From: a virus
IMG/VR virus record: IMGVR_UViG_3300019487_000001
Span: 64,001-128,000 of that record
Strand: one strand, 5' to 3'
DNA length: 64,000 nt
The notes under the pieces were generated by a model. The model saw only the letters and a program-made list of their open reading frames with translations. It had not been told where the DNA came from and ran no database searches. The number at the start of each line of letters is the position of its first letter. The stretch's first letter is position 1. A program made the translations under genes and the position numbers. This document shows, in pieces, positions 5,714 through 56,920 of this stretch.

Positions 5714-6253
5714 ATGAATATGAAGCTTTGCAAAGCATGTAATAATCATAAGACTACTGAAAATTTTAGTTCTAGTCGTATTCTTAAAGATGGCCTATGT
5801 AGTATTTGCAGATCTTGTGATAGTGAACGTGGCAAGAGATATTCAGCTATGCATCCTGAGCGTGAAAGATTACGTAGAAAAAGATGGTATACTAAGAATC
5901 GTGCGCGACGCTTAAAGGTATCGGCTGCATGGACCGCTGATAATCAAGATCGTAGACGCAATGCCTGGTTGTTACGTGTTCACAGTATTACTTTGTTAGA
6001 ATATAATAAGTTGCTTGTGAAGCAAGACTATAAATGTGCTATATGTGAGACTCCTGCTTGCTCTTTAGATCAAAGATTATTCGTTGATCATGATCATTCT
6101 TGTTGTCCGAATTCTAGACATCATTGTAACAAATGTATAAGGGGTTTATTGTGTTTTAAGTGTAATAGGGCGATAGGCTTATTAGATGACTCACATGGAA
6201 ATGCGCAACGTGCTGCGAATTATTTAGCCAACAAGACTAAGGTTTGTGATTAA
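5714..6253 (+). CDS. endonuclease VII-like HNH endonuclease (homing type), copy 1
   Basis: The 179-residue protein has two parts. The N-terminal zinc ribbon (C6-x2-C9 and C32-x2-C35) is followed by a basic linker. The C-terminal domain is of the phage recombination endonuclease VII type: C108-x2-C111, the catalytic V-D125-H126-D127-H128, and R-G-L-L-C147-x2-C150-N. An extra Cys/His-rich insert (129-141) sits between the DHDH and RGLLC motifs. Such genes in structural regions are usually selfish homing endonucleases rather than Holliday-junction resolvases. It lies directly before terL, overlapping it by 8 bases, and its codons are more AT-rich than the capsid genes. Confidence 0.88.
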   Translation: MNMKLCKACNNHKTTENFSSSRILKDGLCSICRSCDSERGKRYSAMHPERERLRRKRWYTKNRARRLKVSAAWTADNQDRRRNAWLLRVHSITLLEYNKLLVKQDYKCAICETPACSLDQRLFVDHDHSCCPNSRHHCNKCIRGLLCFKCNRAIGLLDDSHGNAQRAANYLANKTKVCD

Positions 6254-37174: not shown

Positions 37175-39028
37175 ATGGCATTCGAAAACTTACCTGGGAT
37201 TATCTCCAACAAGTTGGATGGTAATTTGGGCCTTGCTAATCTTAGCAATGCCCCTAAAGTCTTAGTCCTTGGTACTTCGAGTAAGGGCCGTTCTGATAAC
37301 GTATTTCCCGTACGACGCAGTCAAGATGCATCCGCCGAATTTGGTTCTGCGGGTACTCTCTTGCGTGGTATGTTTGAAACCAGAACTGCCGGAGCCGAGA
37401 ACATCCTATTGTTCCGTCTTGGTGCTACCGCTGCTTCACTGGCGCACGTGGGCGACAGTACTGGCTTAGCTGGTATTCTCATCGAGACTCTGGAAAAGGA
37501 TGACGAGGCCGGAGCCCATTTTAGTGTTATATGGGACGACTCGGATGGACGCCTTCAGGTCTTTAACGAAGCTGGAGCTCTAGTGTTCGACAATAACCCT
37601 GCTGATCCGAATAGTCGAATAGACATCGGAGAAGTGGTTGTGTCGGGCGTGCGGGCATCTGGCGGAGGTCCTGACATTGGTGGCCCATCTGCTCCTGTTG
37701 CACTAGAAGACGTTACTGCCACTGGTACGGTCTATACGGCTGGTACCGATGGTTTGAATCCGTCTCTTATGGAACAGTACGAATCGTTGTATCAGGCTTA
37801 TGACTTATTGGAAAATCAAGACGCTGATATTATTATTCCAATGAACGTTTATCTCGATAGTCCTAATGTCATTGATCAAGGGAATGGTGCGACTACCATT
37901 ACACTTCCTGGCGTTAATCAATATCCCCTTCCTGGCAGTCCTAGTGATGCCCTCGGTAAACTCTTCGTTGAAGAGTTCCAAGGTCAATCCTGGTTCTTTT
38001 GGGATACGGATAATGATGGCGATGCTGAAATTTGGCCCACACAGGGTTCCGCTAGTGCGACTACAAAGATTAACGGTGATCCCCTGACGGCGGCTGATTT
38101 TCATGAAGTAAACTTTGCGTATCAACTGGCTAATTTTTGTTTTGATACGTCTGAGAATAGCGTCGAGATGACAGGAGTTATTGGTGTTTTACCGCCCAAG
38201 AGCTTTGCATTAAAGGACATTTCTACCTGGATTGGTACTCAACCCACCCTCCAGCAAGCTGACAATGGCTCGACTAGCATTGCCGGTCCTGCGGATAACG
38301 GCACTGGCCTACTTGGTAACAAGTTTATGGCTGGTCGTTTCGGTTATCGTGCTAGCGCTGGTTTCGGTGGATTTATTAAAACAGACTCTGGCTTTATTGA
38401 TGGAGCCGAGCTTAAAGATGAGAACGAGCATTTTGTTGACATGGGCAAGCATATTAGCGTTGTTGCTCAGTGGGCAACTGCCTTCACTCCGTTTGACCCA
38501 ACTGGCTTTGGTCAGACTGTGAGCATGGCGAGTTATTATGGTGGTCTTTACTCGACACTGCCCCCTGCAAGCGCCCCGACTAACAAGTCGGTTGCCAGCG
38601 CTACATTGCCTTTTAGGGTATCGAATACGAACTTGGACAGATTGTCTAAGTTTCGTTATGTAACATTTCGTCGAAGCCCTACAGCTAACATTGTTGTAAC
38701 AGATGCTCCGACCGCTGCTCGTCCTGATTCAGACTACCAGAGACTTAGTACTATGCGCATTGTGAAAGAAGTTATCGATGCGATTCGTAGATTCGGTCAG
38801 CCCTTCATTGGTGAACCCAATAATGCGGCTCAGCGAGCTGCGCTTCGCACAGTGCTTGAAAATGCACTTAACAGTCTTCTCAAGGCTGGTGACCTGCAGA
38901 GATACGCTCTTGAGATTATCTCTAATCCTGCAGATCAAGTGCTCGGTAAAGCATTCATTCAGCTGGACTTGGTGCCAGCGTTTGAATTGAGACAGTTAAC
39001 AGTTATACTTTCGTTGGCTGCTCAATAA
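37175..39028 (+). CDS. tail sheath protein
   Basis: The 617-residue protein is the contractile sheath. The N-terminus begins like other sheaths (P-G-I-x-x-x-K-L-D-G-N, then V-L-V-L-G-T). The middle has the G-T-D-G-L and Y-x-x-L-Y-x-A-Y-D-L-L segment, and a variable outer domain. The C-terminal domain (about 515-617) shows the sheath core: T-F-R-R-S, I-V-K-E-V-I-D-A-I-R-R, P-F-I-G-E-P-N, and the closing L-R-Q-L-T-V strand. AAGGAGG precedes the ATG. Its presence fixes the phage as a myovirus. Confidence 0.92.
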   Translation: MAFENLPGIISNKLDGNLGLANLSNAPKVLVLGTSSKGRSDNVFPVRRSQDASAEFGSAGTLLRGMFETRTAGAENILLFRLGATAASLAHVGDSTGLAGILIETLEKDDEAGAHFSVIWDDSDGRLQVFNEAGALVFDNNPADPNSRIDIGEVVVSGVRASGGGPDIGGPSAPVALEDVTATGTVYTAGTDGLNPSLMEQYESLYQAYDLLENQDADIIIPMNVYLDSPNVIDQGNGATTITLPGVNQYPLPGSPSDALGKLFVEEFQGQSWFFWDTDNDGDAEIWPTQGSASATTKINGDPLTAADFHEVNFAYQLANFCFDTSENSVEMTGVIGVLPPKSFALKDISTWIGTQPTLQQADNGSTSIAGPADNGTGLLGNKFMAGRFGYRASAGFGGFIKTDSGFIDGAELKDENEHFVDMGKHISVVAQWATAFTPFDPTGFGQTVSMASYYGGLYSTLPPASAPTNKSVASATLPFRVSNTNLDRLSKFRYVTFRRSPTANIVVTDAPTAARPDSDYQRLSTMRIVKEVIDAIRRFGQPFIGEPNNAAQRAALRTVLENALNSLLKAGDLQRYALEIISNPADQVLGKAFIQLDLVPAFELRQLTVILSLAAQ

Positions 39029-40036: not shown

Positions 40037-40966
40037 ATGGCTAATTCTCAGGTTATAAGTACACCTACTGTAACTTTCGATCGGGACCGTGAACAAAAAA
40101 ATGGAAACATTTTCACGGGCAAGAACTCCTATAGCGGAGCCGACATGCAGGCCATTGTTACGATCCCTGGCAGTCGTAGCAGTATACCCGATTCTGAAGT
40201 TAGTAACCTTCGTGATACTATTTCAGTTGAAGAAGAGAAACTTGATCGGCTTAATAAGAGTCTTAGTAGCCTGTTCAATTTACAAGAGCAAGCCCTAGCC
40301 GGTAATAATACAGCAGAGTTTAAGCGCTTAGGTCGTCGTCTTCTAACAACTTCCGCGTTGCGAGACCGTCAAGAAGACCAGGTTCGTATACTCAGTGAGC
40401 GTCTCAATCAGATTACTCGAGAGCGCATCAAGGAGAAGCAGGTCAAGGTTCTTGGCGAGCTGACTACTGTTTCTTATTCTATTCACAGGGAAAAGTTTCC
40501 TGTTAGATCCCTGGGTGCAGTTTATCCCAAAACATTTACTCGTGGTCCTCGTACTATAGCAGGCAGCCTCATGTTTGTAGTGTTTGATAAAGCCGTTCTA
40601 CACGAGCTTCTCAATCCAGATAAGAGCGAGATTGAGTACTATAATCGTAGTACGACTCTCGCAGACCAGATCCCACCCTTTGACATTATTGTCAACTTCG
40701 CCAACGAGCTAGGCAGCTTGTCCCAATTGATCATCTACGGTGTTGAAATCCAAGATGAGGGCCAGGTCATGTCCATAGATAACATGGCTCTTGAGAACAC
40801 GATGCGTTTTGTTGCTAGGGATATCGATCCTATGCGTCTTACTGGTGCTAGACAATTAACTACCATGTCCGGTGGGGACGTTAAAATAGGCGCCTTCAAA
40901 AGCACTGATTTACTTAATAGCGATTTTTACAAACGGATTGATTCAAGGTATAATCCTTTTGCCTAA
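40037..40966 (+). CDS. tail tube paralogue 2 with coiled-coil insert
   Basis: The 309-residue protein keeps the tube pattern: E-L-T-T-V-S-Y-S-I-H-R-E-K-F-P-V, T-I-A-G-S-L-M-F-V-V-F-D, Q-I-P-P-F-D-I, and G-V-E-I-Q-D-E-G-Q with F-V-A-R. An inserted coiled coil (about 55-135) lies near the N-terminus, unlike paralogue 1. GGAGGAGG stands a few bases before the start. It probably forms a special ring, such as the tube end or the junction with the baseplate. The 262-base gap before it holds the two hairpins and no gene. Confidence 0.75.
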   Translation: MANSQVISTPTVTFDRDREQKNGNIFTGKNSYSGADMQAIVTIPGSRSSIPDSEVSNLRDTISVEEEKLDRLNKSLSSLFNLQEQALAGNNTAEFKRLGRRLLTTSALRDRQEDQVRILSERLNQITRERIKEKQVKVLGELTTVSYSIHREKFPVRSLGAVYPKTFTRGPRTIAGSLMFVVFDKAVLHELLNPDKSEIEYYNRSTTLADQIPPFDIIVNFANELGSLSQLIIYGVEIQDEGQVMSIDNMALENTMRFVARDIDPMRLTGARQLTTMSGGDVKIGAFKSTDLLNSDFYKRIDSRYNPFA

Positions 40967-40975
40967 GGAGTCATA

Positions 40976-41770
40976 ATGGGTGTCGATAAACAAAATCAGA
41001 ACTTTCAACAGGTATATGACTTCGATCACTTTGCCGGATCGCAGGTAGGCATTTTCATTGGTGATGTTTTTATAGATGATATCTCCTCGATTGGTTGGTC
41101 CCTCACGCAAGGCAAGAAGCCAATTTACGGCTATGCCAGTTCAAATTATGATCGTGTAGCACCCGGACAGGTTTTAGTTCAGGGTTCCTTCACTCTGAAT
41201 TTTAAAGAACGTGGCTATCTGTTTGTCATCCTGGAGCGGTATAATCGCCTATTGAATAGTGCTAATAACCCAGATGGCAATAGTCCACGAGTGGGTGACC
41301 TGGGCGAATTGGATCTTCGGAAAAATATCGAGCGCATGGTCGCCAGTTCGGAAGTCCATCCTAATTTTGCCTATGACACAAACGATCTGAGGTTTCTCGC
41401 TAATCTAAACGAATTACCCGACAAGGACTTTGAGACCATCGCTGGTATGTTTGAAGATGTAGCATGGGGCGAGGATCCTACAGACCTGGCTAATCGCAAA
41501 GCTGGCAAGAATATTAAACCTGGGGAAGCTCTTCCCGTTGATAGCAAAGGTACAGTTATGGTTCGTCCGGATCAGTTTCCGCCGTTTGATATTGTGATAG
41601 GCTACGGGGATGTCTTCCGTGAGAATCCGAGTGGTGGCAAAAAACAGCTACAAAATAGTACTTCTAAGCGTATCTATAATGTTGATTTAATTGGAGAATC
41701 TCAGATTATTGAGGTTACAGGTGCTCCCATCCAAGAGCGTTATGACTTCATTGCTCGTACAATTCTATAG
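40976..41770 (+). CDS. tail tube paralogue 3
   Basis: The 264-residue protein is the most divergent tube copy. It keeps I-S-S-I-G-W-S-L-T-Q-G-K-K-P-I-Y-G-Y, V-Q-G-S-F-T-L-N-F, and Q-F-P-P-F-D-I, and the final R-Y-D-F-I-A-R. Its insert (about 88-180) is charged and different from those of the other two copies. It may be the tube initiator that joins the tube to the hub, or a distal tube protein. A promoter-like sequence follows its stop. Confidence 0.7.
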   Translation: MGVDKQNQNFQQVYDFDHFAGSQVGIFIGDVFIDDISSIGWSLTQGKKPIYGYASSNYDRVAPGQVLVQGSFTLNFKERGYLFVILERYNRLLNSANNPDGNSPRVGDLGELDLRKNIERMVASSEVHPNFAYDTNDLRFLANLNELPDKDFETIAGMFEDVAWGEDPTDLANRKAGKNIKPGEALPVDSKGTVMVRPDQFPPFDIVIGYGDVFRENPSGGKKQLQNSTSKRIYNVDLIGESQIIEVTGAPIQERYDFIARTIL

Positions 41771-43120: not shown

Positions 43121-46100
43121 ATGCCCTTCTCAAGTATACAACAGAGGAATAGCTGGCTACAGCAATACGTCCAGCCAGAAGTTCAGCGCCTAAATCGTCA
43201 GGCGCCTGATCCGTATTGGTACGCCCCGGGTACCCAAGATTACATCCAACAAGACTCTAGCGGAATGCGCAACTTTCTTCTCGGTGCTGGTGCCGTAGTA
43301 GGTGCTGGTTTTATTCCTATCCGTGGTGGCCAAAGGGTTTGGGATGTATATCACAGGTTAGCCTTCCAACTAGAAGAACGAAGTCCTCGTGGTGTCTTAC
43401 GAACCTTCGGTGGATCACAGCTGTTACAGTCCATGGCTCGGCATCCTGCCAAGGATATGTTGATCGATCTTTTACCCACACAGAACGCCAAGGCTATAAC
43501 TCGCGCCGCAATGGCACAACAGGCTCAGTATTATAGTAAGCTGACTGGTCGTGACATGGGTGAATTCGGCCAGCTGATCTTTAAGCAAGGCAAGCTCTTT
43601 GGTAAAAAACTAGGACAGGAAGCTGAAGAATTGCTTCTTGGTAATGCTACCCTGTTGCGTAAACAGCGAGGCACCCTAGCCGCGTCGTACGTAAATAGCC
43701 TGGGCCTTCCAGCTGCATTTACAACCGAGCGCAACATCGTCATAGGTGCCGGATCTAGGGCTTCTTATTGGAGCCGCTTAGCGTCTGCCTATGCAACAGA
43801 TACTCTACAAAAAGTAAACAATCTGGCTCGAGACCCGTTCCTGGGTATGTTGCCTGATCTTGAGGTTAAGGGCCTTGGACATGTCGATCAGATCTGGCAA
43901 TCAATTCGTGGCTGGAAGCCATTAAAATCTTTAGGCTCACATTTCAGACCTTTTGATTTTGCAGTTGCACCTGGTCCTGCGCACAAGATGATGGGTGCCT
44001 TCGGTGCCAAGCTGGCTTCGAGGGTTGCCCTGGGAGCTGCTGCTTACACTGGTGCTTCTTTCGTTACCAAGACTTTGTTTGACGAGACTCCATTACAGCT
44101 GGTCGCAGACATGTACGTCGGGGCTCGTAAAGTTCGGGCTATGGTCGGTGATGCCATTGGTGCTACAGAGGCCAATAAAACTCGCGAACAAGCAGCACCT
44201 GGATCTACGAGTATAGCTGCTGTTGCGGCTATTCCTACTTCGTTCTTCTTGACTGGTTCGGCAGTAGCTTGGGCTCGTAGAGCCGTGGCTAAGGATGCAA
44301 CCATTGCGACATGGGCCGCACAAACTACCCATAGCATCTTGCCTGCTTTTGCGCACAAATATGCACAATATCTCCCGGGTTCTGTTTCAAAGATATTAAC
44401 TAAGGGTCGGACTATGGCTTCTGCTTATGGCTTACGTGGTGCTGCACTCGGTACATTATTGGTTGCTCCGTTTATACCCCGCGCAGTTTCTGGACTCTTA
44501 TTCGGCAAAGAGAGCTTTGATGAACTATCTGATATTTACGCTGGCCGTAAAGATGTTGCAATACGTAAGGGTCGTTGGTGGGAATTTGGCCGCACTCCGT
44601 TCAGAGGAGATCGAGTGGATTATTACCGGCCTCACTGGTATGCGCTCAATAAGACCGGTGCGCGAGAGAAGTCTATTTGGGGCGATGACGATCTTAATTG
44701 GTTCCAGAAATTCTATCTTAAGAACTTCACCTACGAGCTTGAGAAGCGGCATTACTACGATCGCCCATATCCTGTAAGCTCTCCTGCTTTTGCAGATTTC
44801 CCAGTTCCATTCATTAGGGCGCCACTCATGGCTCTTGGTCGGATGATCAAGCCGTCTGTGTATATGCACACCGAGGAGTGGGCAAAGGGTGAACCTGGGG
44901 CAGCTGGAACGCAGTATCTTGGTATACCTACCAGTGCCGGAGAAGACCCTGGTGCTGGGGGCTTGGGACCACTGGCTCCGCAGTCACCACATAGCTGGCG
45001 GCAGATAGTTGCAGAGGAACAATATAAATTAACCGAAGTCATCGGTTTGCGTGGCTTTGTGTCTGAGAGTATCAGAGCTGGTGTAACTGGGAGTAAGAAT
45101 CTTTTTGCTGGTCCTGTTATGGAAGATGCCGGTAGGATAGGTTCTGCACGTAGGGCTTTTTGGGATACCGATATCGGTGGCGGTATGGGTACTACAGAAT
45201 TTGTTCGTCGTCTCCTCCCTGCTGAACGCATAAAACCATGGGAAAGGTATAATCCAATCCGCAATCAAATGCCGGACTGGTTACCTGGTCCTGAGTATTA
45301 TATGGATTTTTTACATGGTGATCCTTACGCCAAAATAAAAATGGGAGAAGTCCGACTCCCAGGAAAAGGTTACGAAGTCCTACACCCCGAAGTTCTGGAC
45401 GAAGGGTATAGTGACTTCTGGAGATTTAAGATTCTCGCCGATGTAGCGCCCTATTCTGCGCAGTATAAAGAGTATGCTCGCAAAATTAGGGCACAAGCGG
45501 AAGCACATGTTTTAAATGAAGAGCAAGAGCGCGAAGCTCGAGAGATACTACATAGAGCCAATGAGATCAAGGCTCGACGTGAGTTTGATGAAGGGCCGGA
45601 AGAGGGTTTATCTGTGCTCGATAATTATTGGCGCTCTTTAACTCGCAGGTTGGCAGACAATCCAATCGAGTATTTGATTCCATTCGCACCTATTCATAAA
45701 TTTATTGGTAGGGAGAATGCACTCGAGCAATATGAGCGCGAGGTCATTGGTGGCGCTAGCAAGATAGCGTTATGGACAAGACCGATAGAACACTTTGTTA
45801 AACCCGCCGCATATTCATTGGTTCGTAATCTAGGCTTCGATTTTGTACCCAGCGAGTTGCAGCATCGTCGCGATATAGACGAATACTTTGATAGGCTTGA
45901 ATATGTTAAATATAAGAAGCTTGAAAAGCTATCTATACAGGAGGGTGACTACGCTACAGCGAAGTTGTTTACAAAGAAGGCTGGAGAAACCATGTTCGGT
46001 CTTGATAAGTATAGTCGCAACATGCAAACGATTTACCGTGCAATGTCTCCTCAAGAGCGAGATTTCTACGAACAGTTTGTAAACGAAACTGACGCCGCAG

Positions 46101-46621
46101 AGCGGACCAAGATACTAGGTATGGTTCCTGAGGATATGGCGGATTTGTATCGTGCTCAATGGGAACTAAAGGATGCAGAACGTGAAAAGCGTGGTGTTAA
46201 ATACGAGGAATTCCAGGATAGAGAAAAAGAGATATCTGAATTTTTTAGTAAACATGCCCTTCCAAATAAAGACTGGACTGGCTGGGATCCATCGGTTGAT
46301 TTACAGGATGTTAAGCTTAAGTATGTTACAAATCTTGGTGAGGATATGCACGATTATAATCTGTGGGAGTCTCGACAGGTTCAATTATCTCGTAAGCCGC
46401 AGGTGCAAGTTGCCGCCCAGGAACTCGAAGATGCTGAAGGGGGACTATCTTACGGAGAAGCTCGGGAGCGCATACAGGCTATTCTTAAAACCAAGGGTAG
46501 GCTTGCACTTCCAGCTGCATACTCTGATGATAGTGATGCAAGTAACTTGACCTTCGATATTCGGAATGATCAAAGTAAAAAATTCCAACACATGTTAAGA
46601 CGGGGAGAATTAAGTGGCTAA
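43121..46621 (+). CDS. giant virion protein with membrane-like segments (tape measure or ejected protein candidate)
   Basis: The 1166-residue protein lies just after the chaperones, the normal tape-measure position. It has a Gly/Ala/Val hydrophobic run near the N-terminus (about 49-66). Three more hydrophobic stretches follow (about 295-316, 362-390, 434-460). A conserved-looking aromatic block with W-W-E-F-G-R-T-P-F and Y-R-P-H-W-Y spans about 485-595. The last 350 residues are charged and helical. A tape measure would be mostly coiled coil, so a protein ejected into the host membrane seems as likely. No ribosome-binding site is visible before ATG 43121. Confidence 0.55.
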   Translation: MPFSSIQQRNSWLQQYVQPEVQRLNRQAPDPYWYAPGTQDYIQQDSSGMRNFLLGAGAVVGAGFIPIRGGQRVWDVYHRLAFQLEERSPRGVLRTFGGSQLLQSMARHPAKDMLIDLLPTQNAKAITRAAMAQQAQYYSKLTGRDMGEFGQLIFKQGKLFGKKLGQEAEELLLGNATLLRKQRGTLAASYVNSLGLPAAFTTERNIVIGAGSRASYWSRLASAYATDTLQKVNNLARDPFLGMLPDLEVKGLGHVDQIWQSIRGWKPLKSLGSHFRPFDFAVAPGPAHKMMGAFGAKLASRVALGAAAYTGASFVTKTLFDETPLQLVADMYVGARKVRAMVGDAIGATEANKTREQAAPGSTSIAAVAAIPTSFFLTGSAVAWARRAVAKDATIATWAAQTTHSILPAFAHKYAQYLPGSVSKILTKGRTMASAYGLRGAALGTLLVAPFIPRAVSGLLFGKESFDELSDIYAGRKDVAIRKGRWWEFGRTPFRGDRVDYYRPHWYALNKTGAREKSIWGDDDLNWFQKFYLKNFTYELEKRHYYDRPYPVSSPAFADFPVPFIRAPLMALGRMIKPSVYMHTEEWAKGEPGAAGTQYLGIPTSAGEDPGAGGLGPLAPQSPHSWRQIVAEEQYKLTEVIGLRGFVSESIRAGVTGSKNLFAGPVMEDAGRIGSARRAFWDTDIGGGMGTTEFVRRLLPAERIKPWERYNPIRNQMPDWLPGPEYYMDFLHGDPYAKIKMGEVRLPGKGYEVLHPEVLDEGYSDFWRFKILADVAPYSAQYKEYARKIRAQAEAHVLNEEQEREAREILHRANEIKARREFDEGPEEGLSVLDNYWRSLTRRLADNPIEYLIPFAPIHKFIGRENALEQYEREVIGGASKIALWTRPIEHFVKPAAYSLVRNLGFDFVPSELQHRRDIDEYFDRLEYVKYKKLEKLSIQEGDYATAKLFTKKAGETMFGLDKYSRNMQTIYRAMSPQERDFYEQFVNETDAAERTKILGMVPEDMADLYRAQWELKDAEREKRGVKYEEFQDREKEISEFFSKHALPNKDWTGWDPSVDLQDVKLKYVTNLGEDMHDYNLWESRQVQLSRKPQVQVAAQELEDAEGGLSYGEARERIQAILKTKGRLALPAAYSDDSDASNLTFDIRNDQSKKFQHMLRRGELSG

Positions 46622-49600
46622 CGATAATAGAAGCAGCATAAAAGATCGTAATCGTATCGTTGTAGGTGCCGGTCTAGTGGGGGCCGGTGCAGGCTTTGGC
46701 AATGCTGCATGGAGAATAACTCGTGGCACTGATGAGCGTGGTACTTTCAAGCAAGTGCGCGACTTGTATTTAGATGCCTGGAATCGTACGTTTCGTAAGA
46801 GCGACCTTGTCGGCCAGGGGGCTCGTGAGGTTTCAGCGGCCATGGTTGGCTATCGTTCTACGGGACTGAGCCAGTCTCGAGAAACAGAGCGTGCTGCGAA
46901 AGAGTTATTTTTGAGCCCCGTTGATATGGGTAACAACCTTATTAACAAGGCTGCTTTTTCTGAGGCTGTTCGTACTACTCCGGGACTGTCTAGTAGAGCT
47001 GCGGATCTAATGCAAGAGTTTCAGGCTGGATACGAAAAGGCTTCTACGGCTCTTGAAAAGTCTTCCTTTGTAGGACAGTTAGCGCAGAAACATGGTCTTA
47101 CTGGACAAGTAGAGAAAAATATTAAGAAGCTTAGAAGTGTTGAGGGTAGTTTGGCTGAGCATCAGATTTGGCCAGAAGCAGTTATGGGTCATACTCTACA
47201 AAAGTATTCTGATGCTGAACTGGAGCTACAAGGTAAGAGGTACGCCCTGTTCCAGGGTCAGTTCATAGACTACGCCGCTAGTCCGATGCTTGGTTCTCAA
47301 AAGAAGATGCGTGGTATTCGCGCTAAAGTAGCTCAGGAAACTTATAATCGTTCCATTCTACAGAAGATACAACAAGTGGAAAAAACTTCTGGTCAGAGAG
47401 TTATGATCGAACCTATGCTTGTTGGTGGTTCTAAAATTCCCATGTATCAAATTAGATTTGCCGTGGGCAAGAAAGATCTTTCCAAATTTGGAGATCAGGC
47501 TGCTAAGGCACTTAAAGGCTTCCGTCTTAATATACCAGGTACATTTGATGCACCTAGAGTGGAAGGCACAATGAAGAATGTTTTGTATTCGTCTCCCCTG
47601 ATACAGCCTCAGCGAGGGGGCAAGATGATTACTGGTGGCGAGTTTGCACTGGGGAGTCTTGCAGAGCAAGCCAAGCAGATTTTTGCTAAACCTCGATCGG
47701 TTGGTAGTCGTCTTACAGATTTCTTGAAAGATATTAATGCGGTTACTGATAAGGGTAAGCATTATTTGGGCGGAGTGGACACTCTCAGTTCTAGTGCTAC
47801 TGGACGTTTACGCTTACAAGCTCAAAGTGTTTATATGCCGTGGATTAAAGGTTTGCCTCGAACGACTGATATCTTTGGAGCATTTGGTTCACTGATGGGA
47901 TCCGGTAAGTTTTCTCCTGCTCTTTCTCCGGGAGAAGCTGCCGAGGGTATTCTCATGAAGCAGGGTTTATATGCGCATAGTGCTTTTGGTTCTCTTGGTA
48001 ACGTTGCCCGTAATCGCCCAGGTCAGTTGATTCGAGACGTTATTGAGATGCATCCTGATGCGTTAACTGCCATGGGATCTTCTTATGTATTTGGTCCTGG
48101 GGGGATTTTTAAACGACAGGGATCTCTGTATGCTACTAAGGCGGGTCGCGCATTTGAGGCTCAGACGGGCCATGGCACTAGAGTGAACCTCAATGTGCTT
48201 TATGCACCCGAGGCCGCATTTAAAGAATGGGGTACAGTTGCCGAAGATCTTATTATGAAACGTGGTGGCGATGTGAACAAACTTCTAACCACACAAACCT
48301 TTCCACAGCGTGAGTATCGTATTGGTTTAGATACACCGCTAAGCAAGAAGGTCCAAGAAGCTATGGCTGCCGGAGAGGGCACTGCCTTGTCTTTGCAGTC
48401 AGGAGAATTTTTGGGTCTATCAGAAACTGGAAAGATGATTCGTGCTGCCAATCAGCCTGGAGTCTCACAGGAGCTATTGGGTGTAACTAAATATCCTGGC
48501 ACCTCGAAGACCGCTGGATTCTTGCAGTTGCATATTAGACAACGCAATGAATTTCTTGAAGGTACAAAATTGTTTGGTATTAAAGGTTTGTCACAGTTTA
48601 GAAAAACCGAATGGTTTAATAAGCAAGCTGACGAGTTGCTTTACCTAGATGGTAATAAGAGTTTGCGTAAGATGGCTAGGAATCAATTTCTGCCCGAACA
48701 TGTGCGACAGGAAGCAGCAGCTCTTCTGAAGTCTAGAGAGTTAGAGCGTAACGCCGTAGAAGCAATTAGTTCCATGTCGTTATTGAAAAAAGATCCTGTT
48801 CAATTAATGAACACCTTGTGGGGCGGAATGGAAACACAGGCTGGACTTTTGAAACAGAATCCAGCTATGGCAAGAATCGGTTCTCAGTTTTTTGCGGGCA
48901 AGAAACGTGTATTATCGGAGATCTCTCGCTTGGGTAGCGTAGAAGAACAGGTTGCCCGATCTATTAAATACGCCGAGAATATTGGAATGCAGCCTAAACA
49001 TATCGCGGCCTTTGGTAGTGTGTTGACGGGCATGGAACTTACTGAGTTTTCTTCTCGTGGATATCTCGGGGCGCAGAAGGCGTTCTGGGAGAAATGGGCA
49101 GGACCACTTGGTCAGGCTGGGGTGAGCTCAGAGACTCTTGATGTCCTAGGTAGGGGCTATATGTTTAATACCGGAGTCCTGGCGCCAGCTGGCATTGCAG
49201 TTGCTGACTACACTCACGGCAGTAGACTTGCTAGTTTTGAGCCTCGAATATTGTCTGGTATTATGTCTCGCAACTTCGGCGCTCTTGAGGGCGAGGCGGG
49301 CAGTGATATATTGATTAGAGATATAATGAGCAACATGAATACGTTTCAACGTGAACGAGCAGCTCTTGGATTATCTGTGGGCTCTGTCGAGGGTAGCCTG
49401 AGTGCTGATATTCTTAGTCATGCCGAGAAGAATGCCGTCAAGGTTGGTGGCAAGGATTTCCCCATAGAATCTTTCATGGAAGGTTTTGATAAGGGTGGAC
49501 AGTGGATGCGTACACCAGATGGGCAATTAAGGTATATACCAGGCGTAGAAGAATGGCAAGGCATGGGGAAGTATCAATCTGATGCACAGCGATTACTTTC

Positions 49601-51380
49601 TAAAGACATGCGGAGAACAGTTGAAGCCTATGCTAAAAGACCGACTACTAAAAGCCTAGAAGGTTTAGATGAAGTTTTGAAGTCAGCGTATGGACAAAGT
49701 ATCTTCGGTGTTTCGACTGCAAATCAAATCGAAGGCAGCGTCTCTAAGCTTGAGGGTGCTTTACGAGGTAAGCATCATGCTAGTGCTTACGTGAGAGCAT
49801 TTAATGCTACAAGGGATTTACCCGAAAATAGAGTTGCTCTATCTGCTATGGCCGCAGAAGATATGTTTGGTAGCGCCCTGGATTTTGCTCGACGTCAAAG
49901 TGATGAAGCTAAGATTGCAGCTATTAACGATCAGCGCCGTAGATTTTTAGCCGGAGAAGAGATAGCTATGATGGTTGGACGTCATCCCGGTGGGAGTCCA
50001 GAAGCCTTGCAGCCTATGTTTGTGAGTTTATCGACTAGGACTGGTACACATTCTCAAGGCTTTGTTGAAACATCACAGGCCAAAAAACTGTTCCGTGCTT
50101 CCGATGCAGCTGGTCAAATAGAGGACATGTGGCTACGATCTGATCGAATGCTAGGCACAGCGTTTGATACAGACGGAGATCGACTCAATATTATTATGGC
50201 CACGGATCCGAAAGCAGAGAAGATTCTGCATCGTCAGCTAGTAGACACTCAAGCTGTAGAGACGGCAGCCAACCGTTCCATCAAACAGAGCTACCTGGAC
50301 GAATTAGCTTCGAGAGCCCAAAAGGCTAAGGGAGCTATATCGCATAAAGATTTGGCCTTACAGCAAACGGTACTCTTCCGATCTCAAGCTGACGTTGGTT
50401 TAGCGTCTAGTATATCGGATCAGATCTATCAGGGTGCTTCTAGGTATGGTACGGCTACTAATCGAGAGGCTGTAAATCTCATTGCTGCAGCAGTTGAGCA
50501 ATCTACCATTTCTTTGAAGAAGGCTGGAGCTTCGGAGATTATGAATCCGTTCCATGCTAAAATGGTTAATGCTTTCGCTGATTTGCAATCTGCTCCTAGT
50601 GGTTCTATTGCGTCAAGCATAGAGAGCTATTTCGCTGACTACCTGGGCGTAGGAAGTCTAGCCAGTGTTAAGGGTACTACCCTTGCTGCTGTTGACCCGG
50701 TCACGGGAGTTGCGGGTGCGCCCGTCGGTATGCCTGATTTCTCTGCTGCTGCACAGGAGATAGAGGAGTCTGTTAGAAGGTTCCGTCGCGAAGGTGGTGG
50801 CTCCCAGGTTTCGAGGTTTGCTTCTGGTAAGTATAAAGGTGCTATTTCAGAACTCGCTGGCGATATGAGTAAAAATAGGGTATTATCTATGCTAGGTGAG
50901 CCTCAGCGTTTTGCGGCCATGGCTGGCGAGGCCCCAATAAGTACGGTCGGTAAAGCCAAGATGGCTTTTACCGAGGCTACTCAAAAGAGTATAGATCTTT
51001 TAAGAAGGGTGCCCTATAAGCGATCTGTCTTAATGGGTGCCGCCGCCGCTGCTCTAGCCACTCTTGCCATAAGTGCTCGTTCGGGTCAGAGTCGTCCACC
51101 TGATACTTCGGTTTTGCAGCCTGGCGACATGGATCGCCCGATGGAACCTGTGCCAGTTTCTTCCACCCCACAACGCACCCAAATAGTACATGAGGGAGCA
51201 AAGGGTGGTTTGGCAGGTCGTATCAGAATGCGTGCGAACATAGAGTCGGGCATGGATGCACACAGTTTTGCTAGGAGTACAAATAGGTCTATGGGAAGAA
51301 GTTCAACTCAGTATGTCTTGAAAGACGATAGATCTAAGATGAGTCCACATGCTCTAAGTCGAAAGATTGAGGAAACTTAA
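46614..51380 (+). CDS. giant virion protein with candidate two-barrel RNA polymerase domains
   Basis: Starts at GTG overlapping the previous gene; 1588 residues. Two regions match catalytic double-psi barrels of multi-subunit-type RNA polymerases. First (about 585-660): S-G-E-F-L-G..., then E-G-T-K652-L-F-G-I-K657-G, like the beta-subunit G-D-K-x-x-G-x-x-x-x-K-G lysine pair. Second (about 1118-1190): G-R1123-H-P..., then A-F-D1185-T-D1187-G-D1189, the DxDGD metal-binding triad. Next come V-G-L-A-S-S-I (1261) and A-V-E...K-K-A-G (1293-1305), matching the LG...AVD...KTG order of QDE-1-type enzymes. A Gly zipper lies at about 16-30 and a membrane-like run at about 1471-1487. Not shown by alignment; a chance match of one motif is possible, of the whole series less so. 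Confidence 0.6.
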   Translation: MANDNRSSIKDRNRIVVGAGLVGAGAGFGNAAWRITRGTDERGTFKQVRDLYLDAWNRTFRKSDLVGQGAREVSAAMVGYRSTGLSQSRETERAAKELFLSPVDMGNNLINKAAFSEAVRTTPGLSSRAADLMQEFQAGYEKASTALEKSSFVGQLAQKHGLTGQVEKNIKKLRSVEGSLAEHQIWPEAVMGHTLQKYSDAELELQGKRYALFQGQFIDYAASPMLGSQKKMRGIRAKVAQETYNRSILQKIQQVEKTSGQRVMIEPMLVGGSKIPMYQIRFAVGKKDLSKFGDQAAKALKGFRLNIPGTFDAPRVEGTMKNVLYSSPLIQPQRGGKMITGGEFALGSLAEQAKQIFAKPRSVGSRLTDFLKDINAVTDKGKHYLGGVDTLSSSATGRLRLQAQSVYMPWIKGLPRTTDIFGAFGSLMGSGKFSPALSPGEAAEGILMKQGLYAHSAFGSLGNVARNRPGQLIRDVIEMHPDALTAMGSSYVFGPGGIFKRQGSLYATKAGRAFEAQTGHGTRVNLNVLYAPEAAFKEWGTVAEDLIMKRGGDVNKLLTTQTFPQREYRIGLDTPLSKKVQEAMAAGEGTALSLQSGEFLGLSETGKMIRAANQPGVSQELLGVTKYPGTSKTAGFLQLHIRQRNEFLEGTKLFGIKGLSQFRKTEWFNKQADELLYLDGNKSLRKMARNQFLPEHVRQEAAALLKSRELERNAVEAISSMSLLKKDPVQLMNTLWGGMETQAGLLKQNPAMARIGSQFFAGKKRVLSEISRLGSVEEQVARSIKYAENIGMQPKHIAAFGSVLTGMELTEFSSRGYLGAQKAFWEKWAGPLGQAGVSSETLDVLGRGYMFNTGVLAPAGIAVADYTHGSRLASFEPRILSGIMSRNFGALEGEAGSDILIRDIMSNMNTFQRERAALGLSVGSVEGSLSADILSHAEKNAVKVGGKDFPIESFMEGFDKGGQWMRTPDGQLRYIPGVEEWQGMGKYQSDAQRLLSKDMRRTVEAYAKRPTTKSLEGLDEVLKSAYGQSIFGVSTANQIEGSVSKLEGALRGKHHASAYVRAFNATRDLPENRVALSAMAAEDMFGSALDFARRQSDEAKIAAINDQRRRFLAGEEIAMMVGRHPGGSPEALQPMFVSLSTRTGTHSQGFVETSQAKKLFRASDAAGQIEDMWLRSDRMLGTAFDTDGDRLNIIMATDPKAEKILHRQLVDTQAVETAANRSIKQSYLDELASRAQKAKGAISHKDLALQQTVLFRSQADVGLASSISDQIYQGASRYGTATNREAVNLIAAAVEQSTISLKKAGASEIMNPFHAKMVNAFADLQSAPSGSIASSIESYFADYLGVGSLASVKGTTLAAVDPVTGVAGAPVGMPDFSAAAQEIEESVRRFRREGGGSQVSRFASGKYKGAISELAGDMSKNRVLSMLGEPQRFAAMAGEAPISTVGKAKMAFTEATQKSIDLLRRVPYKRSVLMGAAAAALATLAISARSGQSRPPDTSVLQPGDMDRPMEPVPVSSTPQRTQIVHEGAKGGLAGRIRMRANIESGMDAHSFARSTNRSMGRSSTQYVLKDDRSKMSPHALSRKIEET

Positions 51381-51382
51381 TA

Positions 51383-54300
51383 ATGGTTCTAGGTCAGAAT
51401 AGTACACAGGTAGCTGGCGGTAAGAAACTAGAGACGCGTGAAGACGTTCGGCGCCGAGTTGTTTCTCGGCAATTCGAGAGTGCCATAGACGCTGGTGCGT
51501 TGGCTATTAACGACATCCTGTTTAATGTTAATTTGGATGCTGACGCTCAAGACGTGCGCACTGCTACAGTGACAGAGATCGAAGTCGCCAAGCAAGCTCT
51601 CAATAATAACATGGACGTTCTTAGAATGCAGAACGTCATCAGAACCAAGTCGGGCCGCAGTAATCTGGCAGCTCGTATAAGAATCTTGTTTGTGGGCGAA
51701 GAGGAAGTAAATCATACTCTCCGTCGGCTCATAGCCGAGATTCGTAACGTGCCATATGTCGTGGTACATAATGATTTATTGGCTAAGGTTATTTTACCTG
51801 GTCTCCAGGTTGTTGATAACACTATGGCATTTACAGTGAGCAATGCTAGGCTTAGTACGCTCGAGGGTTTGCCGAGTACTTGGGCTCTAGATTTGCAATG
51901 TGTATGGTTTAACTATTTACCATATACCAATGATTTACGTTTCCGCGAAAAGTGGGAACCACTTCAGGAGATTCTTGATACGGGGAGTCCTGTGCAATTA
52001 GGTAACTTCGGTTTGCGACCTACTGTGCCAGTCAAGTTTCTTGGCTTCTCTGAGCCGTATATTAAGTATGTAGATCAAATACTGACATCGGAAAAGTCTA
52101 ACGGTACGCTTCGCAAAGATGGATTTATTTCTAATCGTACCGAATTTACCTGGCGTGAATATATCTATGTTCAGCCTCCATCTAAAAGGAGGGCTGATTT
52201 ACAAGACGTGCCTAGACCCGGCACTTTGTCGCAGCCTTCTTTTGCCGATGTGAAACTGATTGGGTCAATAGACTTCCGTATTAACAGCAAGGCTCAAGAG
52301 GATTTTGAAGAGCTTGCTACGCTATTTAAGAAGCGATTTGGCAAGCCTCTACCGTTGACCTCGATGTTTCGGTCTAAAGATAAACAGAAACTGCTTTACG
52401 AGAATGACAAAGAGATTGCTAATAGACCAGGCACCAGTACGCACGAATCTGGCCAGGGTATAGATATTCTTTTGTCTGACTACCAGGACATAAAACGTAA
52501 GGTTAATAATCTCACACAAAGTCGTGACCATGGTATTAGCAACACAGAATGGTTGTGGCTTGTTGGCAAAGCTCCCAACCAGACACAGGTTGAAAAAGAT
52601 GTTGTGCGCCGCTGGAAGGTGTCGAAAGAAGAATTCGGTGCTAATGAATCCTGGCACTTTACACATCAGAGATCTGGTACCCAGCAGCAGGCATATGAGT
52701 TTGTTTACAAATCAAGTGACGAGCAGGTTGTTGCTGCATTGACTGATGCTAACAGGATTGATAATAGGGATGTGGCAGTTACTCTAAGCGGCGGAGATCT
52801 TTTACTAGACGCGAAAGAGAAGCTGCGTGGCACTGCCAATGAGCGCAATGATAAAGAGATGGAAGAAGAGTTGAAGGCTTTTATTGACCTCTACGAAGTC
52901 GATGGATACAAGTACTACCGGGGTACCGACGCTTTTGTAACTAATGATATATCCGGTGTATTTTTCCGGGAGCGTTCATTGATTATAGCAGGAGATCCAA
53001 ATGAGAAGTCTCAGGTGGATCTGGTGCCTAATCAGATTACATGCTTCTTCGAGAATTTTGTTTCTTCGATTCCCATTCAAGGGCAGAGCTATCCGACTCA
53101 CCAATTTCTCGGATCTTCTGATACTAATACCAGTATTCTTTTATCTGCACTTTCCGATGGGGCCTTAGCGGATATAGCCAACATGGTTAACATGCTAGAG
53201 CGCCAGGCTATTGAATTCAGACGCATACCTCATTCTAGTGTAGTGAGAGTTAATAATGATGTGCTTAGGATCATGGGTATCAAGGACGTGCTTATTTCTA
53301 GCTATGAGGTTAGAACACAGCCTGATTCGCCAACTCTACGCATGGCAACATTAGGACTCGAGCAATACAGCTTTACACGCGAAGAGATCAAATCTCAAAA
53401 TGTTCGATCTAATCGAGATATTCAGCAGGTTGCTGTTCGTGTATTATTGAATCAACTAGAGCCAGACATTATAGATGGTCCCGTTGCTATAAGTGGCGAA
53501 CGTTCCTTCAAAGTAAAAGATGATCTTCGCAATGATCCCCGTAAGGCATTTTTGTCCGATAAGGTTTTACAACTTCTGCGAGTTCTACAGTCACGACAAA
53601 GAAGTCTTATTGATGGTTTTGCCCAGCAAAGACAGGGTTGGTTGGAGTTGCTAGGGGCACAGGAATTTTTAGTACCGGTAATCAAAGAGGATCCATTTAA
53701 AACCCTAGAGGCTGCATTTCTAGCTGGAGCTGCAGAACAGGATACGATCCTTGGTAGGACTCGTGTTACTAGTTTCTTGTCGAATCTGGGCACCTTTGTA
53801 AGTGCAGGTTTCCGCAATCTGTTATTCGATCCTACTGTATTGGTTGATCAGGGTAGGCTAACCGGTTTGCCGGTAGCAGCGGCAAACGCCGCAGGAGCTG
53901 CCGGTGGTACTCTTATTGGTAATTTGCGAGAGAATCAAACTATTAACGGCGACTCTCTTAGAGAGTCTGCCAAGGCTTTTATAGAAGAATTTGGTGAAGA
54001 GTTTACAGATGCGGTTACAGCATCACAAGATGTTCTCTTAGAGAGAACCAAACAAGATATTCTAGGCGTGGTGAACGATCTTATTTTCGAACTGTCCAAT
54101 ACGGATGGTGTTGATTTGGATTTTACTAGGCAGTTTCCAGAGTTGACTCCGTTGATTAACGAGATGGTCAAGCTTGAAGATCTCAATAGCAGAGAAGCCT
54201 ATCCAGATTTGGCCTTGCCCGCACATCCATTCACCGGTCGTATCATTGATACAGAGCCCGATTTTTTTGTGTTTAATGATTCAGAAGAGGGTGGCCTCGG

Positions 54301-56920
54301 CGACATTCCCCCAGGGGTTAGCTCTGTAGCTCGCAATTCTATTAGTCGCAGCGTAGAATCCTTTCAGGATTTTATGGCACCTAACGGTTTGTTTGCTACT
54401 GATCCCAAGTATAAAGTGGGTGGTAAGAGTGCGCAGCCTGCCGCCTACGAAGCAGGTCCCGACTCACCTCCTATCTCCAATGTTGTTACGATTCCTCCAG
54501 CTAAACGGGGAGACCATCGTGGTATTTTTAAGTATAGTCATGATGGTCTATATAAACAAAACGTCAATGCTTATCCCGAGGGGACAGCTGTTAAAATGGG
54601 CCGCGACCTACAGGATGCGAGTGATCCGGTTCTTAATCCGCCCAATGCACAGCACGTTTTTGATCAGAGTAACCTTATGGATATCATTAAGGACTTTACG
54701 TCTAGATCAGATGAGACCTTGACTATGCGTAGAGCATTTCCTGCCTTTAAGTTATTCTTCATCGAAAACGATAGCGATCTGATTGTGAAAGCTTTTGATG
54801 ACTGGTATAGTTACAATGCAATCCGCGAGATTCAATTAGTTAAAACACGCAAAAATCCAGTGGATTATTTAGTAGTCGAATTTTCTAATATCTCGGGCCT
54901 GCTGGATAACAGGGTTTTTAATGATAGCAGGAAGTCGAATGAGCCTTCCGAAGAAGAAATTGATAGGGGCGATACAAAAGAATTCTTTGATCCCGAGAAG
55001 GTTAATACCGAGCAAGAGAATCCCTTTGAGCGCTTAGTACTGAAGCCGGGTTTAAAGGTTGAGTTGCGACTAGGATATACTAATGATCCTAAAAAAATGC
55101 CATTGGAGTTTATTGGTCAGATTACTGAAATCGAACCAATGGACAATGGCGACTGTATTAGAGTGCTTTGTCAAAGTTATGCAACCGAGCTGATCTATAA
55201 AATTAAGGGAGATGACCCTCGTGCCGAATATGGATGGTTCCATTCGGACACGGCAGAATTACTCGGTGGCTTAATTTGTGAACCAGAAGTAGTACACTTT
55301 GGGAGGTGGAGATTCCGTGATAGGATTCGAAGACGCAATGAACGTGCAGCAACCGAAGGACGAAACTCTATTTTCGATAGATGGTTCTTTCTGGACCAGC
55401 CGCAAGACGACAATATTTTTGCTCCTAGAAGGGACTCTTATTTCAGAATTTTCCCACAACTTTTTGGATCTGACGATATCTCCAGTGTCGTTCAAGACGG
55501 AATCTTGGACTACAACGTTTATCAGACCACAATATGGGAAGTTTTCAAAGAGATGGAATTACGGCACCCGGGTTTTATAGCTTCTCCAGTACCATTTGAG
55601 AGCGGTGGCAATCAGCCAAATCGTATGACAATGTTCTTCGGAGTGCCATCTCAGCGCTATTGGGCACGCGGAGCTACACGCAATGAACAACAGTTACGGA
55701 GTCAAGTCAGGGATATAGAGAAGAAGGCGTCGCAATTACGGTCTGGTATCCTGGAGCCCCGCACCATTCTAGAGAATATATTTAACCGTATTCCATTTGT
55801 CGGGGATTCTAGAGATACGAGACGGCAGTTGGCAGCCACCCAGAAGGGCGCGATAGATAAGCTTGAACGAGATGGACAGAAGGCCCTGGAGAAAATAGAC
55901 GCATTGATACATAAGCGTTACCGTAGCTTTCGAAATTACCACATGGTTACTTCTAGTCATCACATCGTGGCCAATAATATCAAGGCTTCTGCCAAGGGTG
56001 TTTTCAATTCAGTCATAGTCCAGTATGTTAGAGACACATCTCATCAAACTGGTTTTTTCATTGGTGCTCAAACTGTATCTGAAAATGGTACTGTTAACTA
56101 TTACGCTGATGATATTGTTAAGATGAGAGCTGACGATGACATTCCGGATGAGTCAATCATTGAAGCCAAGTTTTCCTATCCAAATTGTGAAGGTCCCCGT
56201 ATGGCTCGTCGTTACGCATTGGGACTCATGCTGCGGCATTTGCGCGATGTATACAAAGGTAGCTTGGTAATTACGGGTAGACCTGGCATTAAGCCGTATG
56301 ACATTTGTTATGTTTTTGACACTTATAGTGGCATGTACGGGCCGGTCGAGGTCGAAGAAGTCACCCATGTAATTTCTCGAGATACTGGTTGGGTTACGGA
56401 AATCGTTCCCGACATGTGCGTATATGCTAATGAATTTTCTAGTTGGCCCTTACTTGAGGCTGGGGCTGTAGTTACCGGTCATTTATTTGAGGCTGTTTCA
56501 GATGGAGGATCGGCGGCTCTTAAGACGTTAGGTTTTGAGCAGGGATTTAAGGATCCTGGCGTTAAGAGTTTCACTCAGGGCGTAGGTGTAACGGCAGGTG
56601 GACTAGCTGTTGGTGGCACCATTGCTGCAGCGGCATCCGCCCCCCTATTAACACTTGGTGGCCTGGGAGCTGGTGCATTCTTCATGGCTTGGGGAGCCAC
56701 GAAGTTTATAAGGTATACTCAACATCGCCAACCGCTTAAGATCTGGCCCCTCATGTATCACAAGAAGCCGTATATAGCGGCGTTGAACGGTTACAAGACC
56801 AACAAGATCTTTACGAGCTATTACGGTAAGCTTTCAACTTGGTGGAACAATACCCGCCAAGATCTTCGTCAAGGACTGAATATTTTAGATGCTAACCTTA
56901 AAGGTATACTGGATCAGTAG
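51383..56920 (+). CDS. giant baseplate hub protein with built-in M15 peptidase
   Basis: The 1845-residue protein joins several modules. Residues about 300-430 are a D,D-carboxypeptidase/endopeptidase of the M15 (VanY) type: S-x-F-R330-S, S352-x-H354-x2-G-x2-I-D361, and E422-S-W-H425, with all zinc ligands and the catalytic Glu present. Downstream parts (about 625-690, 1150-1290, 1530-1690) are rich in barrel-like strands as in gp27/gpD hubs. A Gly/Ala hydrophobic run (about 1730-1772) is near the C-terminus. It probably forms the baseplate centre and cuts peptidoglycan peptides during ejection. It follows the candidate polymerase by 2 bases and precedes small baseplate genes. Confidence 0.72.
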   Translation: MVLGQNSTQVAGGKKLETREDVRRRVVSRQFESAIDAGALAINDILFNVNLDADAQDVRTATVTEIEVAKQALNNNMDVLRMQNVIRTKSGRSNLAARIRILFVGEEEVNHTLRRLIAEIRNVPYVVVHNDLLAKVILPGLQVVDNTMAFTVSNARLSTLEGLPSTWALDLQCVWFNYLPYTNDLRFREKWEPLQEILDTGSPVQLGNFGLRPTVPVKFLGFSEPYIKYVDQILTSEKSNGTLRKDGFISNRTEFTWREYIYVQPPSKRRADLQDVPRPGTLSQPSFADVKLIGSIDFRINSKAQEDFEELATLFKKRFGKPLPLTSMFRSKDKQKLLYENDKEIANRPGTSTHESGQGIDILLSDYQDIKRKVNNLTQSRDHGISNTEWLWLVGKAPNQTQVEKDVVRRWKVSKEEFGANESWHFTHQRSGTQQQAYEFVYKSSDEQVVAALTDANRIDNRDVAVTLSGGDLLLDAKEKLRGTANERNDKEMEEELKAFIDLYEVDGYKYYRGTDAFVTNDISGVFFRERSLIIAGDPNEKSQVDLVPNQITCFFENFVSSIPIQGQSYPTHQFLGSSDTNTSILLSALSDGALADIANMVNMLERQAIEFRRIPHSSVVRVNNDVLRIMGIKDVLISSYEVRTQPDSPTLRMATLGLEQYSFTREEIKSQNVRSNRDIQQVAVRVLLNQLEPDIIDGPVAISGERSFKVKDDLRNDPRKAFLSDKVLQLLRVLQSRQRSLIDGFAQQRQGWLELLGAQEFLVPVIKEDPFKTLEAAFLAGAAEQDTILGRTRVTSFLSNLGTFVSAGFRNLLFDPTVLVDQGRLTGLPVAAANAAGAAGGTLIGNLRENQTINGDSLRESAKAFIEEFGEEFTDAVTASQDVLLERTKQDILGVVNDLIFELSNTDGVDLDFTRQFPELTPLINEMVKLEDLNSREAYPDLALPAHPFTGRIIDTEPDFFVFNDSEEGGLGDIPPGVSSVARNSISRSVESFQDFMAPNGLFATDPKYKVGGKSAQPAAYEAGPDSPPISNVVTIPPAKRGDHRGIFKYSHDGLYKQNVNAYPEGTAVKMGRDLQDASDPVLNPPNAQHVFDQSNLMDIIKDFTSRSDETLTMRRAFPAFKLFFIENDSDLIVKAFDDWYSYNAIREIQLVKTRKNPVDYLVVEFSNISGLLDNRVFNDSRKSNEPSEEEIDRGDTKEFFDPEKVNTEQENPFERLVLKPGLKVELRLGYTNDPKKMPLEFIGQITEIEPMDNGDCIRVLCQSYATELIYKIKGDDPRAEYGWFHSDTAELLGGLICEPEVVHFGRWRFRDRIRRRNERAATEGRNSIFDRWFFLDQPQDDNIFAPRRDSYFRIFPQLFGSDDISSVVQDGILDYNVYQTTIWEVFKEMELRHPGFIASPVPFESGGNQPNRMTMFFGVPSQRYWARGATRNEQQLRSQVRDIEKKASQLRSGILEPRTILENIFNRIPFVGDSRDTRRQLAATQKGAIDKLERDGQKALEKIDALIHKRYRSFRNYHMVTSSHHIVANNIKASAKGVFNSVIVQYVRDTSHQTGFFIGAQTVSENGTVNYYADDIVKMRADDDIPDESIIEAKFSYPNCEGPRMARRYALGLMLRHLRDVYKGSLVITGRPGIKPYDICYVFDTYSGMYGPVEVEEVTHVISRDTGWVTEIVPDMCVYANEFSSWPLLEAGAVVTGHLFEAVSDGGSAALKTLGFEQGFKDPGVKSFTQGVGVTAGGLAVGGTIAAAASAPLLTLGGLGAGAFFMAWGATKFIRYTQHRQPLKIWPLMYHKKPYIAALNGYKTNKIFTSYYGKLSTWWNNTRQDLRQGLNILDANLKGILDQ

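Follow-up and report, generated by a model that had tools for sequence, protein, structure and literature searches.

The stretch of DNA analysed here (the window) comprises 64,000 nucleotides, positions 64,001 to 128,000 of the viral record IMGVR_UViG_3300019487_000001, a phage record of 194,631 bases. Among its tail genes lies a large open reading frame (ORF), 46614-51380, which very probably belongs to a two-barrel RNA polymerase (RNAP) family of 0305phi8-36-type myophages that includes gp36 of Acinetobacter phage ME3 and gp034 of Bacillus phage KLEB27-3. We further propose that its product is probably a single-polypeptide enzyme that is made late, built into the virion and ejected, and that transcribes the first phage genes. 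Directly supported by our data are the homology of its second double-psi barrel (DPBB-B) to RNAP largest subunits, the conservation of active-site residues, the position among tail genes and the modular C-terminus.

Active-site motifs and homology to RNA polymerases

The gene and the landmarks of its polymerase core are as follows (aa, amino acids).

46614-51380, + strand: predicted two-barrel RNA polymerase gene, 1588 aa, GTG start
48366-48683, + strand: putative first barrel (DPBB-A), residues 585-690; strand-rich in the model, with K652 invariant and K657 conserved in 90% or more
48567-48584, + strand: lysine pair K652...K657 (GTK-LFGI-KG; G650-T-K652-LFGI-K657-G658)
49956-50198, + strand: second barrel (DPBB-B), residues 1115-1195
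49980-49988, + strand: RxP motif, R1123-H-P1125
50166-50180, + strand: predicted catalytic metal-binding motif, D1185-T-D-G-D1189
50343-50543, + strand: candidate bridge-helix/trigger region, residues 1244-1310 (VGLASS ... EQSTISLKK), conserved, helical and located after the active site

Taken alone, the window protein has no match in Pfam, PHROGs, the PDB, phage records (tblastn) or viral contigs. An earlier note, made from the letters of this DNA, had nevertheless picked out K652, K657, R1123-P1125, D1185-D1189, VGLASS (starting at residue 1261) and AVEQSTISLKKAG (near 1293-1305), and all of them are indeed found at these positions. Among 20,000 composition shuffles of the protein, DxDGD arises in 1.0%, DxDGD with RxP 20-75 residues upstream in 0.14%, and both of these together with GxKx4KG at loose spacing in 0.005%, although this test was chosen post hoc and is only suggestive. 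By itself, DxDGD is also present in three unrelated genes of this phage record, including the tail sheath; therefore the motif in one sequence is no proof, and it is its conservation that provides the proof.

Relatives were collected via alignments of the baseplate hub encoded by the following gene, which added about 110 loci on viral contigs and another six on contigs of bacterial genomes; the hub worked as a synteny anchor, whereas a pattern search with a three-sequence polymerase alignment did not. In 97 of 112 loci, the product of the gene upstream of the hub has DxDxD 370-640 residues before its C-terminus; the hub gene itself, which served as a control, has it in two of 68 (representatives below 80% identity). 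Three further loci (L069, L078, L114) have the polymerase one gene further upstream; its apparent absence from them was rejected, having been caused by a split hub. Directly before the hub, ME3 and KLEB27-3 encode proteins of 1603 aa (gp36) and 2434 aa (gp034), respectively, neither of which has significant BLAST similarity to the window protein, and both of which carry RxP followed by DxDxD in the same order.

Members of the family were picked partly for having DxDxD, but the alignment of this motif in single columns and the conservation of the lysines and of RxP were not imposed. Across 24 full-length members with a mean column identity of 14%, the only invariant columns are G18, G606, P1125, D1185, D1187 and D1189, with R1123 conserved in more than 90%, and within the window's clade (31 members, about 16% identity) the sole invariant residues are R474, G601, K652, R1123 and the same three aspartates. 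The conservation of these aspartates in homologues, which the earlier note had put forward as a check, is hence borne out in both alignments. K657 is conserved in 90% or more of the sequences in a dedicated alignment, which favours it over K682, a second catalytic lysine suggested by an earlier alignment and now rejected. The downstream G..S and E..IS.KH motifs are family-wide. As a separate observation, a DnaQ-like 3'-5' exonuclease domain is present in L118, L121, CDS0027 of Moorella phage MTATph1 (L003) and a few others, lying in the N-terminal half or at another site of the slot protein beyond the polymerase core.

Profile searches connect this family to cellular and viral RNAPs. When the 24-member profile was run against all PDB chains, the top nine matches were RNAP largest subunits (Pol I, 6e-4; phiKZ and AR9, 1e-3), and an 18-member profile of DPBB-B matched 113 chains, the best 60 of which are all RNAP largest subunits, with phiKZ nvRNAP (1.9e-6) and AR9 beta' (2.8e-5) as the best matches. 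By profile, the solved structures closest to the family are those of multisubunit RNAPs (phiKZ, AR9, Pol I/V largest subunits). Single members match RNA_pol_Rpb1_2 weakly (0.00076 and 0.0016, below the curated cut-off), and the profile of the window's clade alone gave no PDB match. Within the family, the window clade and the KLEB clade, which share no sequence similarity, are homologous by profile (E 4.9e-15 over 321 columns), the match running from before the second barrel to the downstream helices. A hidden Markov model of the window-clade segment 1080-1330 matches 30 proteins outside the clade (best 8e-20), and one of the first-barrel segment matches eight.

Structure prediction points in the same direction. 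The AlphaFold model of residues 430-1400, built from 31 sequences (pLDDT 70.5, pTM 0.69), is rich in strands over two segments predicted with good confidence, 592-687 and 1117-1195, both of which harbour the conserved residues. When this model was searched with Foldseek, the best 50 PDB matches were all RNA polymerase chains, 40 of them with E <0.001 and nearly all of them beta' chains. Also among the PDB matches listed is 8rdj_C, whose 1040 residues are the length of a plastid beta subunit; if it is one, as we infer from this length, it would support the first barrel. Among viral models, an ME3 protein of a length that would fit half of gp36 is the best named match (6.7e-8), and RNAP subunits of large DNA viruses come next, with weaker E-values. 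A distant-clade member modelled separately gave a poor model (pLDDT 51.5, pTM 0.39), for which all 50 listed PDB matches are again RNAPs (best AR9 beta', 9.6e-6); this is consistent with the above only. The two double-psi barrels that the earlier note expected to see in a structure have therefore fared unequally: all listed matches are RNAPs and DPBB-B is supported, but the first barrel is less certain than the second.

A different two-barrel enzyme carried by the tail, for example a PolD-like DNA polymerase or primase, could perceivably produce some of these signals, given that PolD also has two double-psi barrels (PMC10770324) and that the N-terminal 3'-5' exonuclease domain of a few members could look like proofreading. 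However, all listed low-E profile and fold matches are RNAPs, and the phage, as read from its sequence, has its own DNA polymerase III alpha-like protein and primase-helicase, such that we find this explanation hardly probable at all.

The tail locus, the C-terminal module and the tape-measure question

The following features describe the setting of the polymerase gene and its C-terminal end.

37175-39028, + strand: contractile tail sheath
43121-46621, + strand: upstream 1166-aa gene, ME3_35 homologue; kept also in RNAP-less relatives and the better tape-measure candidate
51021-51077, + strand: membrane-helix-like segment, residues 1470-1488; part of a C-terminal module that also occurs without the polymerase
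51201-51377, + strand: C-terminal anchor-like domain, residues ~1530-1588 (~60 residues, conserved); common to RNAP-less versions
51383-56920, + strand: baseplate hub gene with VanY peptidase domain, 1845 aa; the synteny anchor
58728-59960, + strand: baseplate wedge subunit

The neighbours of the polymerase gene (terminase, portal, major capsid protein, tail sheath and baseplate wedge) form the set of a contractile-tailed phage. Its start overlaps the preceding 1166-aa gene by 8 bases, and it is therefore probably part of the same late operon. The hub is related to those of ME3, MTATph1 and KLEB27-3, and the annotation of the relatives' hub points to Bacillus phage 0305phi8-36; likewise, ME3_35 is annotated as a relative of 0305phi8-36 YP_001429636 (gp145 by order). 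With a conserved tail gene on one side and the hub on the other, the polymerase gene occupies the slot of 0305phi8-36 gp146, which lies between gp145 and the hub gp147 and was named a tape measure protein (TMP) solely for its length and position (PMC2147016). An alignment of gp146 with its BtI1/BwK1 counterpart is possible only over the last 60 residues (PMC2147016), which fits the C-terminal module found here.

In several relatives this module fills the slot without a polymerase. In L006 (5701-6282) and L011, which come from different metagenomes and whose hubs are among the closest to the window's hub, the slot protein has 193 aa and comprises little beyond the C-terminal module (E 1e-22). 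The slot proteins of L020 (4689-6926) and L102 (4388-6805), with 745 and 805 aa, share the same C-terminal end (4e-8 and 3e-11, respectively) and lack DxDxD. The upstream gene is conserved in all four, its product being 32-35% identical over long stretches to the 1166-aa protein of the window. No polymerase relocated elsewhere was found in the RNAP-less records, in a search that had no positive control. Because 193-, 745- and 805-aa forms without polymerase fill the slot and the upstream gene is conserved throughout, a ruler role for the slot protein is doubtful. The earlier note had placed the polymerase in the tape-measure position; the slot is indeed that of the “TMP” gp146, yet its polymerase-free occupants speak against this function. 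Our conclusion is that a structural anchor carries the polymerase as cargo, and that the tape measure is better sought in the conserved upstream gene.

These findings also bear on whether the window protein might be a tail structural or tape-measure protein that descended from an RNA polymerase and is no longer one. The name given to the slot in 0305phi8-36 (PMC2147016), the fast divergence of the sequence outside the motifs and the altered fourth motif position of some members would all be in keeping with such a history. On the other hand, the three aspartates, R1123 and K652 are not the residues that purely structural use would be expected to preserve at 16% identity, and the short RNAP-less versions show that the structure has no need of the polymerase part. 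We therefore deem a retired polymerase very unlikely.

Several further observations were made on this locus and its surroundings. The RNAP-less versions of L020 and L102 also have an unrelated N-terminal part. In MTATph1 (L003, 8904-16260, CDS0027-0031) an IS21-type istA/istB pair splits the slot gene, which lacks DxDxD; its CDS0031 still has the anchor domain. The last 60 residues of the 1166-aa protein resemble the anchor domain of the polymerase gene, and the two ends may be paralogous. Two adjacent genes after the sheath (window 40037-40966 and 40976-41770) match a PHROG that is annotated as major head protein, a label that may be wrong, since their position suggests tail-tube proteins. 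The terminase large subunit (window 6246-9287) is unusually long (1013 aa), its N-terminal part matching a helicase family. Outside the window, the record encodes a 979-aa protein (179831-182770, − strand) whose first half consists of many short repeats around (L/F)GHKF, and a ribonucleotide-reductase-like protein with an apparent intein, as read from the sequence (189311-192217, − strand).

Proposed packaging and early transcription

Our favoured model explains the place of the gene as follows. The polymerase would be made late, alongside the tail proteins, and be incorporated into the virion by means of the membrane-helix and anchor module at its C-terminus. At infection, ejection would come before that of the DNA or together with it, and the enzyme would stay near the entry channel, such that the first phage genes could be transcribed during DNA entry, before host or later polymerases take over. 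First-gene transcription at the entry site is the likely role by analogy with the Thermus phage P23-45, whose tail-locus polymerase was proposed to transcribe pre-early genes during DNA entry (PMC10770324). Polymerase activity, packaging, ejection and early transcription are what we infer for the family. With regard to packaging, KLEB27-3 gp034 was listed as a structural protein by its depositors, and around the 0305phi8-36 tape-measure genes only orfs 143/144 were called non-structure genes (PMC2147016).

Alternatively, a two-barrel RNA polymerase could be made late and transcribe late genes in the cell without being packaged, its place in the tail locus being incidental. The fold and motif evidence is independent of packaging and would serve this explanation equally well, and intracellular RNAPs do occur in the lineage, as 0305phi8-36 carries a YonO-like gp99 in its non-structural arm (PMC2147016, PMC7824862). 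It is, however, at odds with the constant position that the gene holds, in dozens of diverged phages, between the hub and a conserved tail gene, with the existence of the C-terminal membrane-helix/anchor module alone at the same place, and with the structural label of KLEB27-3 gp034. Moreover, at least one member has a separate YonO-like polymerase elsewhere (1467 aa, with DHDGD), which would do the intracellular job. Taking all this into account, we regard an unpackaged enzyme as unlikely. The latter relative and 0305phi8-36 with its gp99 would make the same two-polymerase plan. L133 (3172-7573, − strand) and L134 (2222-7001, + strand) also encode a second large protein with RxP and DHDGD or DFDID and a weak match to RdRP (PF05183); these are probable non-virion polymerases.

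Several points weigh against a virion-carried, active enzyme as proposed here. Some members have the unusual motifs DxDFD, DxDLD or DxDHD and may therefore be inactive. The fold matches are only local, the clean ones spanning about 280 residues, and their TM-scores by query are low (0.10-0.16), so the overall architecture of the model is tentative. The DPBB-A profile gave no PDB match, leaving the first barrel unsupported there, and at 533 residues, K652 and D1185 stand far apart for a two-barrel enzyme made of one chain. In addition, no phage-specific promoter motif was found, the upstream motifs shared in the record being no more frequent than in shuffles. Finally, the record is possibly incomplete and a second polymerase may exist; a DxDxD scan of all its ORFs of at least 150 aa did not find one, nor did Pfam, for which the RdRP control was also empty.

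Looking beyond the single gene, we lean towards the view that this is a contractile-tailed lineage with a tail-anchored, ejected polymerase in the “tape measure” slot, from which the polymerase part was lost or left out several times with the anchor being kept, which would make transcription from the entry channel an optional module of a contractile injection machine. The lineage of the slot gene is widespread in metagenomes and includes cultured phages. A virion-polymerase role appears not to have been assigned to this slot gene before: papers on jumbo-phage transcription mention no enzymes other than gp99-type or multisubunit ones for these groups (PMC7824862, PMC7598289, PMC13282480), and no paper on KLEB27-3 was found in the open literature. 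The same literature yielded P23-45 as the only described tail-locus two-barrel polymerase, with subscription papers thinly covered and an earlier report possible. If our model is true, a large, previously function-less gene family gains an enzyme activity, one more family joins the few known single-chain RNA polymerases, tail-locus virion polymerases occur in contractile-tailed phages, apart from the Thermus siphophages, and the start of transcription in these phages is explained. It also calls into question the tape-measure assignment of gp146 in the 0305phi8-36 lineage. The family makes the question testable in the cultured phages ME3 and KLEB27-3, with the natural RNAP-less forms as ready controls.

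Comparison with known polymerases

The earlier note had read the gene as a virion RNA polymerase of the YonO/crAss gp66 type. The two-barrel family and the tail cluster of a contractile-tailed phage both stand, and virion packaging is what we would expect from them, but the assignment to the YonO/gp66 type is not supported, in that PF05183 (RdRP) is matched by none of the 24 members, nor by the window protein, and the nearest profile relatives are multisubunit RNAPs. Like the family described here, 0305phi8-36 gp99 and YonO are single-chain two-barrel polymerases, and gp99 even belongs to the same lineage (PMC2147016, PMC7824862); gp99, however, aligns with Pfam RdRP and lies outside the structural cluster. 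The crAss-like gp66 (phi14:2) is a single-chain two-barrel polymerase of a phage virion, as is proposed here. No sequence link specific to gp66 emerged here; gp66 and QDE-1 are not among the listed PDB matches, and no direct comparison with either was made.

The statement that the virion-carried enzymes known from this clan are those of crAss-like and Thermus phages leaves out the multisubunit virion RNAPs (vRNAPs) of phiKZ-type phages, which are contractile-tailed (PMC13282480, PMC7598289); virion two-barrel polymerases in contractile-tailed phages are in this sense already known, phiKZ carrying its vRNAP in the virion (PMC13282480). PhiKZ and AR9 (7ogp, 7s01), both contractile-tailed jumbo phages, provide the best profile and fold relatives of the second barrel. 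Their RNAPs nonetheless consist of several subunits, and phiKZ packages its vRNAP in the head, whereas here a single polypeptide is encoded in the tail cluster.

A close parallel in genomic arrangement is gp96 of the siphophage P23-45, a vRNAP fused to a tape measure protein (PMC10770324), which is likewise a single-chain two-barrel RNAP at a tail locus and in which DxDGD was the only recognisable sequence (PMC10770324). A comparison of gp96 with the family by hhalign on the DPBB-B motif gave E 0.0028 at a probability of 11%, which is suggestive only (E 0.17 for the window clade). On both sides the RNAP part is missing in some relatives, namely G18 and phiFa on the side of P23-45 and L006, L020 and L102 here. 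Unlike in P23-45, where the polymerase is the N-terminal part of a 5,002-aa ruler, it is encoded here by a separate gene of about 1,400-2,400 residues beside the hub, in phages with contractile tails, and it carries a C-terminal membrane-helix/anchor module.

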